From Arcicella aurantiaca (GTDB taxonomy: Bacteria > Bacteroidota > Bacteroidia > Cytophagales > Spirosomataceae): a stretch of DNA of 64,000 nucleotides. The position numbers and the translations under genes were made by a program. Under the pieces are notes generated by a model. That model was not told the origin of the DNA. It was given only the letters and a program-made list of their open reading frames with translations, and did no database searches. The first letter of the stretch is position 1, and the number at the start of each line of letters is the position of its first letter. Shown in pieces: positions 13,955 to 58,400 of the stretch. The DNA is taken from positions 1 through 64,000 of the forward strand of contig NZ_QGGO01000018.1 of assembly GCF_003148625.1 (NCBI RefSeq). Reading direction: 5' to 3'.

Positions 13955-14449
13955 ATGATGGATATTCTTTTGTTAATTGCTTCAATTTTTTGCTTGTTTG
14001 TCGGCTTGGCAGGTGCTGTACTTCCTTTACCCGGTCCACCCATAAGTTTGATTGGACTTTTCTTTTTAAATGCTTCAAAATATGCAGATTACGACCGCAA
14101 AACATTGACAATTTTCACCCTGCTGACTATCATAATGAGTGTATTTGACTATTATGCTCCAATTTGGGGAACAAAGAAATTTGGTGGTACAAAATATGGT
14201 TCTTGGGGTTCAACAATTGGGCTTTTGGCAGGACTTTTCTTTACGCCAATCGGAATGTTTTTGGGTGCTTTCCTTGGTGCATTTTTAGGGGAAATAGTCG
14301 GAAAAACCGAACCCGATAAAGCATTAAAAGCAGCAATTGGTTCAATGATTGGACTGATTACGGGAATTATCGGAAAAGTGATTTTATGCTTAATAATGAT
14401 GATTTACGCAGGAATGGCAATAGGAGAGTATTTTATGATGATGAGTTAG
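13955..14449 (+). CDS. DUF456 family membrane protein
   Basis: A 164-residue integral membrane protein with four to five hydrophobic segments. The motif LPLPGPPISLIGLF at residues 28-41 and the glycine-rich GAFLGAFLGEIVG are typical of DUF456. Function unknown. It diverges from the DUF3291 gene with 64 bases between start codons. Confidence 0.8.
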   Translation: MMDILLLIASIFCLFVGLAGAVLPLPGPPISLIGLFFLNASKYADYDRKTLTIFTLLTIIMSVFDYYAPIWGTKKFGGTKYGSWGSTIGLLAGLFFTPIGMFLGAFLGAFLGEIVGKTEPDKALKAAIGSMIGLITGIIGKVILCLIMMIYAGMAIGEYFMMMS

Positions 14450-14451
14450 AT

Positions 14452-14574
14452 TTTAGAGAATAGATGATAAGTTAGATTATAGAGAATAGATGATAGAGTA
14501 GCTTACATTTAGGGAAAAATTCTCTATTCTCTATTCTCTATTCTCTATTCTCTATTTCTCTATTCTCTATTTCT
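14452..14574. repeat. heptameric tandem repeat and its inverted copies
   Basis: Seven units of roughly TCTCTAT stand at 14518-14574, two of them with an extra T. Inverted copies (AGAGAATAGATGATA) are at 14452-14500. The TAG stop of rlmN at 14567-14569 lies inside the repeat. Length changes downstream of the stop would not alter the protein. Confidence 0.8.
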
Positions 14575-40454: not shown

Positions 40455-40913
40455 CTAAACCATTTTCTTAAAAATCGCTTTCATTGATTTTTCTATCTTG
40501 GCATAATCTTCAATTGTCTTTGCAATATACACAAAAGCAATGTAAGCAGGAATCTGATTGGAGGGTTTTTGCATCAAAAGATGCTTATTGAGGCGGTATG
40601 CCTCACGAGTGCGGCGTTTTACCAAGTTTCTATCAACGGCGTGTTTGAATGAACGCTTAGAAACGGAGATTAGGATTTGGGGAGGCGTAGTCGTAAGTGG
40701 TAAATTTTCAAGAGTCGTAAGTTCTCCTGATTCAGTCACATTCAAGTCTTCGCTTATGACTTGTGACTTATCACTTAATATTTCGTGAATATAAGTAACA
40801 CGAAAAGGGTAGAGAAAAACCGATGGGTTTGTTTCTCTACCCTTTTTATCAAAGAGTTGTTCAATAACTTTTTTGGAATTGAGTCTTTCTGACTTTTTAA
40901 AAGTAAATTTCAC
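40455..40913 (-). CDS. rnpA: ribonuclease P protein component with an insert
   Basis: A 152-residue RnpA, against about 110-130 for the family. It binds RNase P RNA and helps process tRNA 5' ends. It starts at GTG 40913 with MKFTFKKSERLNSKKVIEQL, and the signature ILISVSKRSFKHAVDRNLVK followed by RRTREAYRLNKHLL is intact at residues about 80-114. Between the first strands (VTYIHE) and PPQILIS stand about 34 extra residues, 44-77, whose DNA (40683-40784) looks like an intergenic repeat. It lies downstream of rpmH in the usual order. Confidence 0.92.
   Translation of the reverse strand: MKFTFKKSERLNSKKVIEQLFDKKGRETNPSVFLYPFRVTYIHEILSDKSQVISEDLNVTESGELTTLENLPLTTTPPQILISVSKRSFKHAVDRNLVKRRTREAYRLNKHLLMQKPSNQIPAYIAFVYIAKTIEDYAKIEKSMKAIFKKMV
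40683..40784. repeat. intergenic-type repeat in frame within rnpA
   Basis: Minus strand AGTGATAAGTCACAAGTCAT followed by AAGCGAAGACTTG, then ACTTACGACTCTTG and CCACTTACGACTACG. AGTGATAAGTCACAAGTC-type strings are of the kind usually seen between genes. Here they encode residues 44-77 of RnpA. Confidence 0.65.
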
Positions 40914-40994: not shown

Positions 40995-41150
40995 CTATTT
41001 ACCTCTTTTCTCGTCTGAAACTGTCAATTTATGTCTTCCTCTTGCACGACGAGCCGCTAATACACGACGACCGTTTGGAGTTGACATTCTCTCACGGAAA
41101 CCGTGCTTATTTTTTCTCTTTCTTACCGATGGTTGAAACGTTCTTTTCAT
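40995..41150 (-). CDS. rpmH: 50S ribosomal protein L34
   Basis: A 51-residue ribosomal protein: [20 protein letters not shown], then [20 protein letters not shown] and a short tail. Missing from length-filtered gene lists. It has a clear promoter and is followed by rnpA after 81 bases. Confidence 0.97.
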
Positions 41151-50676: not shown

Positions 50677-52479
50677 TTACATTTCAATACCAATGCCTTT
50701 CATTAATAAACTGGCATTGAAACTATGACAAACGCCAGCTCGAAGTTTATAATCAAAAACTAAATCTCCGTTTACAACCTCCGAAGAAAAGCTATAATTC
50801 TCTACAAAACCTTGCTTTTCAAATTCATCCCCCAATTCCACATCATGCGTTGAAATAAAACCAGAAGCCCTTGTTTTGTGTAATTGTAACATTAAAGCTT
50901 TTGCTCCATCATGGCGGTCTTTGGAGTTTGTCCCCTTCAATATTTCATCTAAAAAGTAAAAAATAGGTAACTGATAACTGTTTACTGCTAACTGTTTACT
51001 GTTAATTGCTTGAATTAATGTTTTCAACCGCTTCAATTCTGCATAAAAAGAGGAGGTATCTTCTTCCAAAGAATCTTGGGTTCGCATACTCGTAAAAATC
51101 TGCATACACGAACACGTAAATGCCTCTGCACAAACCACCGAACCCGCTAAAGCCAAAACAATATTTACGCCCACAGTACGTTGAAAGGTACTTTTGCCCG
51201 ACATATTTGAGCCTGTAATGATAACGGTTTTTCCTTCGCCTTCTATCTCAATACTATTCGTAATTCGCTTCATTTTTCGTATCATCGGATGTCCCAAACT
51301 CGTTACTTTTAAAGCAATAGAATCATCTGAAATTTCGGGTTTTACAAAGTCTGGATTGGCAAAATGTAAACCTGCAAAACTGTTCAATGTCTCAAATTGA
51401 GCAATAATCAAAAGCCATTTTGAAAGATTATCTCGGTGTTGGCGTTTCCAATTTTCCAGTTTAATAAAATATTGAATATCCCATAAAGTAGGAATCCCCA
51501 CAATAAACATGAAAAATGGATTGGCTCGGTTGCCCAATTTATTCAAAATGTCTTCTAAAGCCTTAATCGCAGGACTTGCTTCTGATAATTCTGATTGTAA
51601 TTGCAGCAGTTGCGGGTGCGTAAATGGCTCATTTACAACAGTCTCAGAAAGGCTTGCGTATGCTTTTAATGCACCCGTCAATCGAAGCGTTTGCTCGAGA
51701 GCATTAGAAACTGTTTCGTAGATTTGTTTGCCAATAAACCCATGAATTACCAACATGACAAGCGGATAACCGATGGGTAGAAAATCAAAAGCCCAAGCTA
51801 AAATTAATGGAATAGTAAGGTAAGGAAGATATTTTCCGTACTGAAAAATAGGCTTTTTAATTTCCTCATTTTCAGGCGAATTACTCCATTGAAATAATTT
51901 GTGTGTCGGTTCGGCAACTTCTTCAATCAAGAGGGCGGAGGCTTCTAAATTTTGTCTAAAATCAATTTTAGAAGACAATTCTGCAACCATTTCTTGGCGG
52001 ACTAAAATCTCTGATTTTGTCGCAGGAAATTTCAACCATTCCGCCAACATGGCAGAACCTGTAAAAGTATGCGTGCGGTTAAGAAGTTTGAAAATAGATT
52101 GTTTTCCGAAAATATCTAAATCTGAACTATAAAAATGATTGCTTTCGGCAAATTGTTCACCTGTTTCCGCACGAGTAAAAATGTTTTCTAAACGTTTTAA
52201 TTCGTCTTCATTAAGCCTTGTTAAAGCTCTGTTTTTATCACGTAAATATTTTATTTTCAGATGTTTAGAAACAGAAAATAAAAATACCGAAATGCCAATG
52301 ATAACAACAGGAATGACATAGTTTCCACCCCAAAACAGATTGGTAGCATAACTAACGGCAATGGTAGCAAGAAATAAAATAGCTCTAAAAATCGCCCATT
52401 GATTATACTGTTTTTGGAAATTATCAGCGAGATTTTGGAAGGTGTCTTGTCTATTTTGAAAGGTTTGTTGAGGAGACAT
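50677..52479 (-). CDS. MutS-like DNA mismatch-repair-family ATPase with repeat insert
   Basis: A protein of about 600 residues with the MutS C-terminal ATPase: Walker A GSNMSGKSTFQRTVGVN near residue 419, Walker B FYFLDEILKGTNS near residue 505, the D-loop TSSFYAEL and switch STHDVELG. Two membrane-like segments stand near residues 45-85 and another at about 210-235, so it belongs to the membrane-associated MutS family of Bacteroidota. Between the helix and Walker B is AINSKQLAVNSYQLPI, encoded by a repeat (50967-51008). The start may be ATG 52479 or GTG 52497. Confidence 0.85.
   Translation of the reverse strand: MSPQQTFQNRQDTFQNLADNFQKQYNQWAIFRAILFLATIAVSYATNLFWGGNYVIPVVIIGISVFLFSVSKHLKIKYLRDKNRALTRLNEDELKRLENIFTRAETGEQFAESNHFYSSDLDIFGKQSIFKLLNRTHTFTGSAMLAEWLKFPATKSEILVRQEMVAELSSKIDFRQNLEASALLIEEVAEPTHKLFQWSNSPENEEIKKPIFQYGKYLPYLTIPLILAWAFDFLPIGYPLVMLVIHGFIGKQIYETVSNALEQTLRLTGALKAYASLSETVVNEPFTHPQLLQLQSELSEASPAIKALEDILNKLGNRANPFFMFIVGIPTLWDIQYFIKLENWKRQHRDNLSKWLLIIAQFETLNSFAGLHFANPDFVKPEISDDSIALKVTSLGHPMIRKMKRITNSIEIEGEGKTVIITGSNMSGKSTFQRTVGVNIVLALAGSVVCAEAFTCSCMQIFTSMRTQDSLEEDTSSFYAELKRLKTLIQAINSKQLAVNSYQLPIFYFLDEILKGTNSKDRHDGAKALMLQLHKTRASGFISTHDVELGDEFEKQGFVENYSFSSEVVNGDLVFDYKLRAGVCHSFNASLLMKGIGIEM
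50967..51008. repeat. intergenic-type repeat in frame within the MutS-like gene
   Basis: Minus strand AACAGTAAACAGTTAGCAGT followed by AAACAGTTATCAGTTACC. Repeating AACAGT(T/A) units encode NSKQLAVNSYQLP just before the Walker B strand. Confidence 0.65.
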
Positions 52480-55496: not shown

Positions 55497-58400
55497 TTGG
55501 CAGAAAATACATTACAAACTATTCTAAAATCGTATCAAAAAAGACTAACCAATCTGACTTCGAGAAATAAGTCATTATTATTACTTAGTCTTTCTTCGGA
55601 ACAGTTTTTAGACATCAACGAACTTGATTTTTTACAAAATAAATCTTCATTCAACGTCATTGAGCAACTAATTGCTCAAAAAAATACCATTTCTCTTTGC
55701 GACACTCACGACCCCCGTTACGAGCGTGTCAATGAGGTAAGTAAACGCCTACGGAAGATTTCGAGAACCGAAAAATTTATAGAGGAAGAAAGAGGTTCGG
55801 AGGATTTATACGTAGGTTTTCCTATCGTGAAAGGCAAGTTTTCAGACGGAACGGTGGTTCGTTGTCCGCTGATGTTTTTTCCTGTTCATCTCACGCAAAA
55901 AAATGAAACGTGGCAACTCAAAACTCGTGAGGAAGCCGTTACGCTCAATCGGAGTTTTTTGTTGGCGTATTCTCATTTCAATCAAGTACAGATTTCGGAT
56001 GAATTTTTGGAGCAGAGTTTTGAAGATTATTCCAAAGATTCGCTTGAATTTAGAACCCAACTTTACGAATATTTACGAGATTCCCCTTTAAAAATTGATT
56101 TCAACAAAGACTTGTTTGTCAGTCAATTAAGCTATTTTGAGAAACTCGTAAAAGCTGATTTGGAATTAACGGAACGCAACGGCGAATTAAAATTATTCCC
56201 TCAGGCAGTTTTAGGAATTTTCCCACAAGCAGGCTCATTTTTAGTACCAGATTATGAGGAGTTAGTGATTAGGAGTTTGGGGTTAGGGGATAGAGGTTTT
56301 GCAGACGTTGAGGGATTAATCACTCCTCCCGAAAATTCTAATAAATATGAAAATAATTTAGAATGCTTATTCCCTAAACCTCTAATCTCCAATTCCCAAC
56401 CCCTAACCCCTATTAAAGAAGAAAACCTTTTAACGCCCTTTGCCGTTGATGCTACCCAAGAATTAGCTTTGCAACAAGTCAAATTGGGGGCTTCGTTGGT
56501 GGTTCAAGGTCCTCCCGGAACGGGTAAATCTCAACTGATTTGTAATTTGGTGGCAGATTTTACCGCAAGGGGTAAAAAAGTGTTGGTCGTTTGTCAGAAA
56601 CGTGCCGCCCTTGATGTGGTGCAAGAACGCCTTTCGCAAGCGGGTATGCGTGCCTTCGTGGGCAATGTGCATGATTTTAAAAATGACCGAAAAGATTTGT
56701 ACGAACAAATTTTGTCTCAAATAGAACAAATCGAAGAATATCAAAAACTGAATAATAACCTTGATTCCATTTTTTTAGACCGTAATTATACCCAAGAAAG
56801 TCGCCAAATAGACAAGATTTCGGAGGTTTTACAAGAGTTTAAAGACACACTTTTTGATAGTTCAGAATGTGGAATTTCAGTAAAAGAATTATACCTGACA
56901 AGTTCGCCCAATCAGGCAAGTTTGAATGTAGAAAATGAATATAAAAGGTTTAAATTAAGCGAGATAGAAGGTTTTGTTAGAATGTTCAGTCAGTATTTGA
57001 ATTATCAGAAGAGGCTATCTTTTCCAACTGATAATGAAAATGTTGAACCCAATGTTTTTTGGCAAAATAGGCTTTCATTTCAAAATCATAAATACTCAAA
57101 TGTCGCATCAATAAATCAAATAATTGACGATGTTTTCAGTTTTGTACAAAACCTTGAAAGCTTTTCTTCTAAAAAGCGAGATGACTTTGAAGATTTGAAG
57201 GCAATTTCTTCTGAAAAAGAGACTTTACAAGTCATTTTGAATCTCTTGAAAAATGAAAAATCGTATGAACTTTTCAAAAGATTAATTAACGAAAAATCAA
57301 AAATAAATGCTTCAAAATTAGGAGAATTAGAAGCACAAGTCGGGGCTTTTTTTGCAGGACAAGGCATTGAAATTACGTTGCCAAGTGCCAAATTATTACC
57401 AATTCTATCAAAAATTAACGGAGCGATTGATACAAAATCTAATGCTTTGGGAGGATTATTTTGGGGCTTTTTCTCAAAAGAAAAGGCTGAAATCCAAGAT
57501 GTTACAACGGCAAATGGTTTGAGCCTTTCGTTAGATGATTTACAAAAACTACGAGAAAGAATCCAAAATAGAGTTGGCTTAGAAAAATGGTGGAGTGAAT
57601 GGACTGATTTATTCGAGAATAAGCAAAATAACGTTGACGACGAACCTGTTTGGTTGCGAAAAGGCTACCGTTGGTTTGAGCGTAATTTTCAGCAATTATA
57701 TCAAGTTGTTGATGCAATTAAGCATTGGAAATCAGCAATAAAAAAGGTGAAAAACAACCATGAATTATCGGTTCAAGTTCTGACAAATTCTCTTGATTTA
57801 TCATTTTCTGATTTTCAAAAACGGCTTAATTGTTTTATTCAAAAATCGAATCAATTGTCTGAAAATCAGATTGTTTGGAAGCAAAACTTATCGTCAAAAC
57901 AAATAGATTTATTGGCAAATTCTACCAATATAGAGCGTATTAAAACGTACCTGAAAGAGAATTTTGAATTACTCCAAGAATCCGATGAATTGAAAGCGTC
58001 GTTTAGTCGTAGCGAATGGAAAATTGTGGAGAAATTTTTACCAGAAAACGAGCCTGTTGATACATTTTTGAACAGTTTAAAATTAGCTTGGATTGAACAC
58101 ATTGAAGGAAAATATCCAATTCTTCGGAGTGTCAGTTCTTTGAAAATCAGTCAATTGGAAAGTGATTTGCAAACATCTGTTCAGAAAAAACAAGCTTTTA
58201 GTCAAGAGATTTTATTGTTGAAATTACGGGAAGAAACATACCGAAATTTAGAAAAAAATCGACTTCAAAATGTGGTAACTTACCGAGATTTAAAGCACCA
58301 AGTTTCTAAAAAACGCAAACTTTGGTCGGTCAGAAAATTGATTTCTGAATATTCCGAAGAAGTTTTTAAACTTGTTCCGTGTTGGTTGGCTTCTCCCGAA

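Follow-up and report, generated by a model that had tools for sequence, protein, structure and literature searches.

The rnpA gene of Arcicella aurantiaca, which encodes the protein component of RNase P, raises the question of how a protein that is essential in bacteria came to hold a segment that most of its relatives lack, and what kind of DNA that segment was made from. In the window, which is the whole stretch of 64,000 nucleotides that was analysed, rnpA lies at 40455-40913 on the minus strand and encodes 152 aa from a GTG start. The ORF was assigned from its match to the PF00825 profile (E 1.4e-14) and from an AF2 model built from 65 sequences (mean pLDDT 82), for which ranks 2-16 of a Foldseek search against the PDB were entries named as RNase P proteins or as chains of the holoenzyme (E 7.8e-5 to 7e-3), including five RNase P protein matches at E <=0.001. 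The RNA-binding signature AVDRNLVKRRTREAYRL (AVDRN..KRR.RE pattern) is intact, and residues R95, N96, R100 and E104 are invariant across 65 aligned rows. Upstream of rnpA, a 51-aa ORF at 40995-41150 on the minus strand, identified from sequence only, is by eye presumably rpmH (ribosomal protein L34), which usually lies next to rnpA.

An earlier note on this DNA had claimed that residues 44-77 are extra against the family, that frame and RNA-binding signature are kept, and that the protein seems to carry a repeat-derived loop, in the manner of the peptides made from repeats in Rickettsia. Residues 44-77 map exactly onto window positions 40683-40784 (minus strand), and the reading frame stays open, so that frame and signature are indeed kept. 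In the AF2 model, the segment lies between strands at residues 37-42 and 79-84, with ten-residue pLDDT means of 67, 49, 51 and 71 and a pLDDT of about 50 over residues 51-70, showing what is predicted to be a disordered loop on an intact RnpA core.

Loop length was compared over 171 rnpA loci, the relatives being represented by 30 loci and 60 more taken from the 145 genomes with a match; four loci were not parsed (the fragment L022, L301, L305 and L307), 16 exact duplicates were removed, and 10 of the remaining 151 distinct genes, L036 among them, lack the loop-bounding motifs, leaving 141 parsed RnpA. Counted from PFRV to the ILISVSKR strand, the loop is 41 aa in the window and at most 19 aa in 106 of the 141, and the alignment of relatives showed that the segment is not conserved in distant ones, in agreement with the claim that it is extra. 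Although most relatives are without it, it is not unique to this genome: loops of 34-41 aa were found in the Arcicella group, made up of G000 (the genome of the window), of G003, G006, G002 and G001 (all four other genus genomes with rnpA found), and of G035 and G016. Genus g19, with loops of 74 and 78 aa, and some further genomes have long loops as well. Of 8 genus genomes, 5 yielded the gene (the window's own and four of seven others), as did 145 of 150 family genomes; G004, G005 and G007 had no rnpA in the search results, leaving three of the eight genus genomes silent. In G003, contig C418 (L022) ends 126 nt into rnpA, right at the loop, and another contig (L018) begins at rnpA and holds the whole gene, which is perhaps an assembly break or strain variation.

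The window loop DNA reads AAGTGATAAGTCACAAGTCATAAGC...CTTACGACT...CCACTTACGACT, in which an imperfect array of heptamers stands opposite a partial complement. The 5' arm heptamers AAGTGATAAGTCACAAGTCATAAGC (40752-40776, minus strand) encode SDKSQVIS, and the strings AAGTGATAAGTCACAAGT at 40759-40776 and AAGTCACAAGTCATAAGC at 40752-40769 were confirmed. In the 3' arm remnant (40690-40722, minus strand), pairing is lost, and two ACTTACGAC copies flank a middle that has changed (ACTTACGACTCTTGAAAATTTACCACTTACGAC); at this place, the sister genome G003 reads ACTTATGACTTATGACTT. The identity of the window loop with itself at a lag of 7 bases was 0.40, a value reached by 0/300 codon shuffles, 0/300 base shuffles and 4/300 synonymous shuffles. 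Its hairpin energy was less distinctive (z -2.0), since 10/300 codon shuffles were equally stable, which speaks against a repeat origin of this copy by itself. The loop of G003, which is homologous to that of the window (97/126 positions identical, with flanks at 112/114 and 191/200), is an AGTCATA-type inverted repeat with 27-nt arms (z -4.5, 0/300 codon shuffles), and the window's own copy is decayed.

Hairpins of other units were found at the same site. The G002 loop is of the GGGATTG type (GGGATTGGGGATTGGG...CCAATCCCTAATCCCTAATCCCC; z -7.5) and the G035 loop of the AAGTTGA type (GTAGAGTTTAAAGTTGAAAG...CTTTCAACTTTAAACTC; z -6.5), neither being matched by any of 300 codon shuffles, and the G006 loop is related to the G035 type but weaker (z -1.8; 78/111 positions shared by the two loops). 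When the protein was held fixed by synonymous shuffles, z was -3.5 for G003, -3.8 for G002 and -2.9 for G035 (0, 1 and 5 of 300, respectively), and -2.2 for both weak loops (window and G006). In addition, pure arrays of several units, AGTCATA and GGGATTA among them, hit a stop codon in every frame; the loops stay open through variant letters and short arrays, and the window copy has CACA where CATA would stop, a pattern that would fit selection for an open frame.

The loop could alternatively be an ordinary hypervariable linker, in which the turn drifts and lengthens and resembles a repeat by chance in AT-rich genomes. The turn does span 10 to 78 aa over the 141 parsed RnpA, and several long loops showed no hairpin beyond chance, namely L035, L038 and L028 and also the loops of G001 and G016, which are of like length and for which 32 and 299 of 300 codon shuffles, respectively, attained the 7-lag identity; for the long loop L033 (G083), z was -3.3 (0/200 codon shuffles) with one choice of ends and -1.9 (17/300) with another. 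The modest repetition of the window's unit, given below, also favours this explanation. It is contradicted for G002, G003, G035, G050 and G025 by the hairpins of G003, G002 and G035, by the 88 matches to the G002 loop within that genome, and by a palindrome at 83 places per genome in g19, and we regard it as improbable. The long loops of G001 and G016 make it possible that a long non-repeat loop was colonised later. The reading we prefer, and hold to be highly probable, is that a hairpin of heptanucleotide repeats, belonging to a class common between genes in Arcicella-type genomes, sits in frame in the RnpA turn and gave rise to the loop. This agrees with the earlier proposal of a repeat-derived in-frame loop, with the amendments described here.

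The unit at this site changes between sister species. Between G006 (L019) and G002 (L020), the 5' flank is identical at 112/114 and the 3' flank at 185/200 positions, while the loops are identical at 62/114; since the loops differ between near-identical flanks, one unit has replaced another at a fixed place. No empty site was seen at the rnpA loop. The loop unit matches repeats common in the same genome clearly for G002 and G035, but the G006 unit is scarce in G006 (three matches, at one place), which speaks against a unit taken from its own genome there.

That the loop DNA resembles the repeats seen in gaps, as the earlier note held, is true of the unit but not of the whole segment. The full 102 bp had no second significant copy when searched against its own genome (15 other matches of 14-30 bp, E >=0.28), and a fixed dispersed element in this genome was rejected as the search returned the segment itself and chance-level matches. 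With at most 1 mismatch allowed, the own genome has the unit AAGTSRYAAGTSRYAAGT 10 times, 8 of them outside rnpA; 6 of these 8 places are in gaps, two of them within what by eye resemble terminator hairpins. The expectation from Markov simulation was about 1.8 (3 events in 10 Mb), but the reversed-pattern control gave 19 against 10, and the unit is thus not outstanding among the heptamers of this genome. Because the window copy has no second copy and its unit is modestly repeated, its repeat origin rests mainly on the intact sister in G003.

Whole-genome pattern searches over 10 genomes, with rnpA matches included, gave 55 occurrences of GGGATT in G002, 10 in G005, 9 in G007, 8 in G000 and 0 in the other six; 26 of AAAGTTK in G035 and at most 3 in any other; and 39 of AAGTSRY in G002, 21 in G003, 10 each in G000 and G005, 3 in G007 and 0 in five. 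The share of rnpA itself was 4 for GGGATT in G002, 1 for AAAGTTK in G035, and 0 in G002 and 3 in G003 for AAGTSRY. The simulation expectation was 0 for both GGGATT and AAAGTTK, and that AAGTSRY is commoner in G002 than in G003 counts against a tie between unit and genome. The reversed control of AAAGTTK in G035 gave 1 against 26, whereas that of GGGATT gave 38 against 8 in G000, 12 against 10 in G005, 16 against 9 in G007 and 41 against 55 in G002, though the reversals of GGGATT and AAGTSRY are not clean controls, since the former spells the same repeat (GGGATTA) and the latter another heptamer present here (TGAACAG type). These control counts slightly lower our confidence in the preferred reading. 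A strict 7-period scan was too sparse for unit comparison (12, 8, 2, 2, 0 and 3 segments in G000, G002, G035, G003, G006 and G001, respectively). The homologous G002 loop gave a clear signal, with the 88 matches in G002 counted at E <=0.001 (self included; 40 of 105 candidates scored), 8 matches in G000, 3 in G003 and 0 in G006, G001 and G035. Four of the matches in G002 span 88-97 of 102 positions at 76%, and all four are gap hairpins of the same build.

The own genome was surveyed by pattern and similarity searches and by a 464-kb sample. This sample held 22 seven-periodic segments, 18 in gaps and 4 in ORFs, and the arms of its 118 strong hairpins had a best period of 7 in 21 cases and of 8 in 6. 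Against a general preference for 7, five other genome samples gave 22/18, 9/9, 1/0, 3/1 and 5/7 hairpin arms of period 7/period 8, with no clear lead. A TAACTGA array is present in the own genome (L055), as is a very long heptamer hairpin with 130-bp arms of the CAGTTATCAGTAAACAGTTATCAATTAA type (L059:7719-8044). In the window itself, positions 14437-14571 hold a heptamer array of ATAGAGA facing TCTCTAT in a hairpin, and positions 56257-56412 an AGGGATT-type array with a short stretch of AACCCCT behind it, the latter array being picked up by the tandem finder only. By eye, AGTCATA-unit gap hairpins at L333 and L337 (G000:C3 and G000:C15) lie in the stems of terminator-like structures (CCGAAAAGT...ACTTTTCGG, with a T-run nearby).

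A further explanation is a mobile element of the MITE or RPE kind that has ends of its own and that diverged after a single insertion. Rickettsia palindromic elements (RPEs) are hairpin-forming repeats that lie between genes and in frame in conserved protein genes, and they are known too from the rickettsial RNase P RNA gene (PMC2229807). The RnpA loop is likewise an in-frame hairpin repeat in a conserved gene, of a class that is also found between genes, and such in-frame insertion is known behaviour of RPEs; the likeness of the four long G002 copies over most of the loop (76%) also favours a mobile element. However, RPEs form a family of 105-146 bp, whereas the RnpA element is made of 7-bp units that depend on the species and has the RNase P protein as its host. 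As an RPE, the loop would be expected to recur many times in the genome as a single sequence about 105-146 bp long, and the 102 bp of the window loop has no second copy in its own genome. The units differ completely at one site, a wide variety of units is seen among gap hairpins in the own genome, and no common ends, terminal inverted repeats or target-site duplication were noticed by eye in the loops and gap copies. A mobile element of this kind is therefore judged quite improbable, and the likeness to Rickettsia that had been drawn for the loop holds in kind, the difference being a heptanucleotide class whose unit is exchanged between species in place of a fixed element.

The site is also used in another genus by another repeat. 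The g19 loops (74-78 aa; L296 in G050:C5 and L298 in G025:C34) hold GGTCTGACGGTACGTCTGACC, a 21-bp near-palindrome, in both orientations. With at most 2 mismatches allowed, two g19 genomes have it at 83 places each, the rnpA copies included, and three others at 0, and the reversed control gave 0. Genus g19 uses the same RnpA turn independently, with an unrelated repeat. Because the turn tolerates very different peptides, the element can be carried as a disordered loop with the RNA-binding core intact.

Heptamer tracts were also found in AlaS and RNase R of the genus, with species-specific units. At AlaS site 1 (5 genomes comparable), the tract is of the CAGTTAT/CAGTGAA type in G000 and G003 and of the CAGTTGG/CAGTCGG type in G002, and 4 residues are missing in G001; at RNase R site 2, it is of the CCTAACC type in G000 and G007 and of the AAAGCCA type in G002, with no clear heptamer array in G003, G006 and G001. 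A coding heptamer tract lies at 50968-51003 on the minus strand of the window, at aa 493-504 of a MutS-like ORF (50677-52479; PF00488 at aa 419-585). The heptamer-encoded peptides QLSVNSEQ, SVINEQLAVISE, LTPNPQNLTPN and NSKQLAVNSYQ are seen inside AlaS, RNase R and the MutS-like protein (L048:2884-5538, L063:5672-8095 and window 50677-52479).

Another explanation for the recurring hairpin is that it is kept for mRNA structure (pausing, processing or attenuation after rpmH), the sequence changing while the pairing stays. The hairpin form does recur with three units at one site, and a separate conserved stem-loop, AAAAGGGTAGAGAAA / TTTCTCTACCCTTTT, lies in the rnpA coding region at 40803-40846 (minus strand), 18 nt upstream of the loop. 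The stem-loop is a feature of Spirosomaceae-type genomes. In the window, it has perfect 15-bp arms and is terminator-like in shape (A-tract, GGTAG/CTACC stem, T-tract). Rows were picked by protein motif out of 105 family rows, giving 45 distinct genes of one protein type and 12 of the Arcicella/Aquirufa type. In the 45 genes, 96.7% of stem cells pair, compared with 64.6% (sd 1.8, highest of 300 69.8) when synonymous codons were resampled, and in the 12 genes 99.0% pair, compared with 58.9% (sd 4.3, highest 71.9); as the rows are related by descent, these spreads are not probabilities. The 5' arm is common to both types, and the 3' arms, in alternative registers, are two codons apart. Each type has one clearly covarying stem pair (AT 24, GC 13 and GT 8; GC 6 and AT 6), whose 3' base is at a third and whose 5' base at a second codon position, so that a change of partner alters an amino acid. 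The wobbles were 32 GT/TG versus 8 AC/CA, the excess expected if the mRNA is the folded strand. Of the 105 rows assigned to the family, 79 have the strict core motif, as does 1 of the 36 remaining rows; those without it include Emticicia and Siphonobacter. The stem is carried by L036, although that gene lacks the loop-bounding motifs. Rfam held no family for the stem-loop (one match, on the other strand, 19.6 versus a gathering score of 51 bits, E 0.22), and no stem-loop in the rnpA coding region was found in the literature by title or abstract start among the matches listed. With this conserved, covarying stem, selection appears to act on the structure of the rnpA mRNA at this place.

A structural role for the loop hairpin itself is nevertheless unlikely in our estimate: it is absent in G001 and G016 and decayed in the window species and G006, 106 of the 141 RnpA have no room for it, and gaps in the own genome and in G002 often hold heptamer hairpins, so that the form needs no selection. 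An mRNA role is not needed to explain the loop, and in the window species the hairpin has decayed and is probably without a function of its own.

Under the preferred reading of a heptanucleotide hairpin in the RnpA turn, the hairpin would have entered the turn in an ancestor of Arcicella and G035. The unit may later have been overwritten, whether through slippage, through hairpin-templated correction or by copying from elsewhere in the genome, which the data do not separate, and the changes would have followed the repeats prevailing in each genome. Decay would have come after overwriting, and the survivors would be the open, in-frame versions only. The search for other copies that the earlier note had proposed gave none for the 102 bp, 8 other places for its unit and the many matches of the homologous G002 loop in G002.

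Short repeats at related places are known from other systems. STRR sequences were reportedly described by Vioque in 1997 in cyanobacterial RNase P RNA genes; these short tandem repeats, too, lie within the gene of an RNase P subunit, but of the RNA subunit, whereas RnpA is the protein. Arrays of TAACTGA and related heptamers have been described between genes in five Bacteroidetes and inside some ORFs (PMC4679880). For the most part they are direct repeats close to start codons, and those within ORFs tend to encode the ends of proteins, in contrast to the inverted arrays of species-specific units inside the core fold of RnpA. Among the literature matches listed, of which PMC4679880 alone looked relevant, there was no precedent for one heptamer class taking the place of another in frame within a conserved protein. 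In the P6b stem of the cyanobacterial trnL intron, 7-nt repeats occupy a fixed hairpin site, and Class II has repeatedly been replaced by Class I (PMC4476775). The RnpA loop is also a fixed hairpin site with its heptamer class replaced; the trnL site differs in being an untranslated stem of a self-splicing intron with two classes only.

More speculatively, heptanucleotide hairpins might be a self-overwriting class, in which genome-wide copying imposes the current unit at fixed sites including rnpA, alaS and rnr and rewrites protein segments in the repeat dialect of the genome; the RnpA turn might then be a standing landing pad, used too by the unrelated palindrome of another genus, and the adjoining conserved stem-loop might mark rnpA mRNA as structure-regulated. 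In the reading held to be highly probable, noncoding repeat DNA would supply, and then rewrite, a segment of an essential protein outside the Rickettsiales. The process by which heptanucleotide hairpins change unit was left open by the trnL intron work (PMC4476775), and one site with different units in sister species may serve as a readout of it. RnpA is small and can be assayed, so that the tolerance of its turn for such loops is open to testing.
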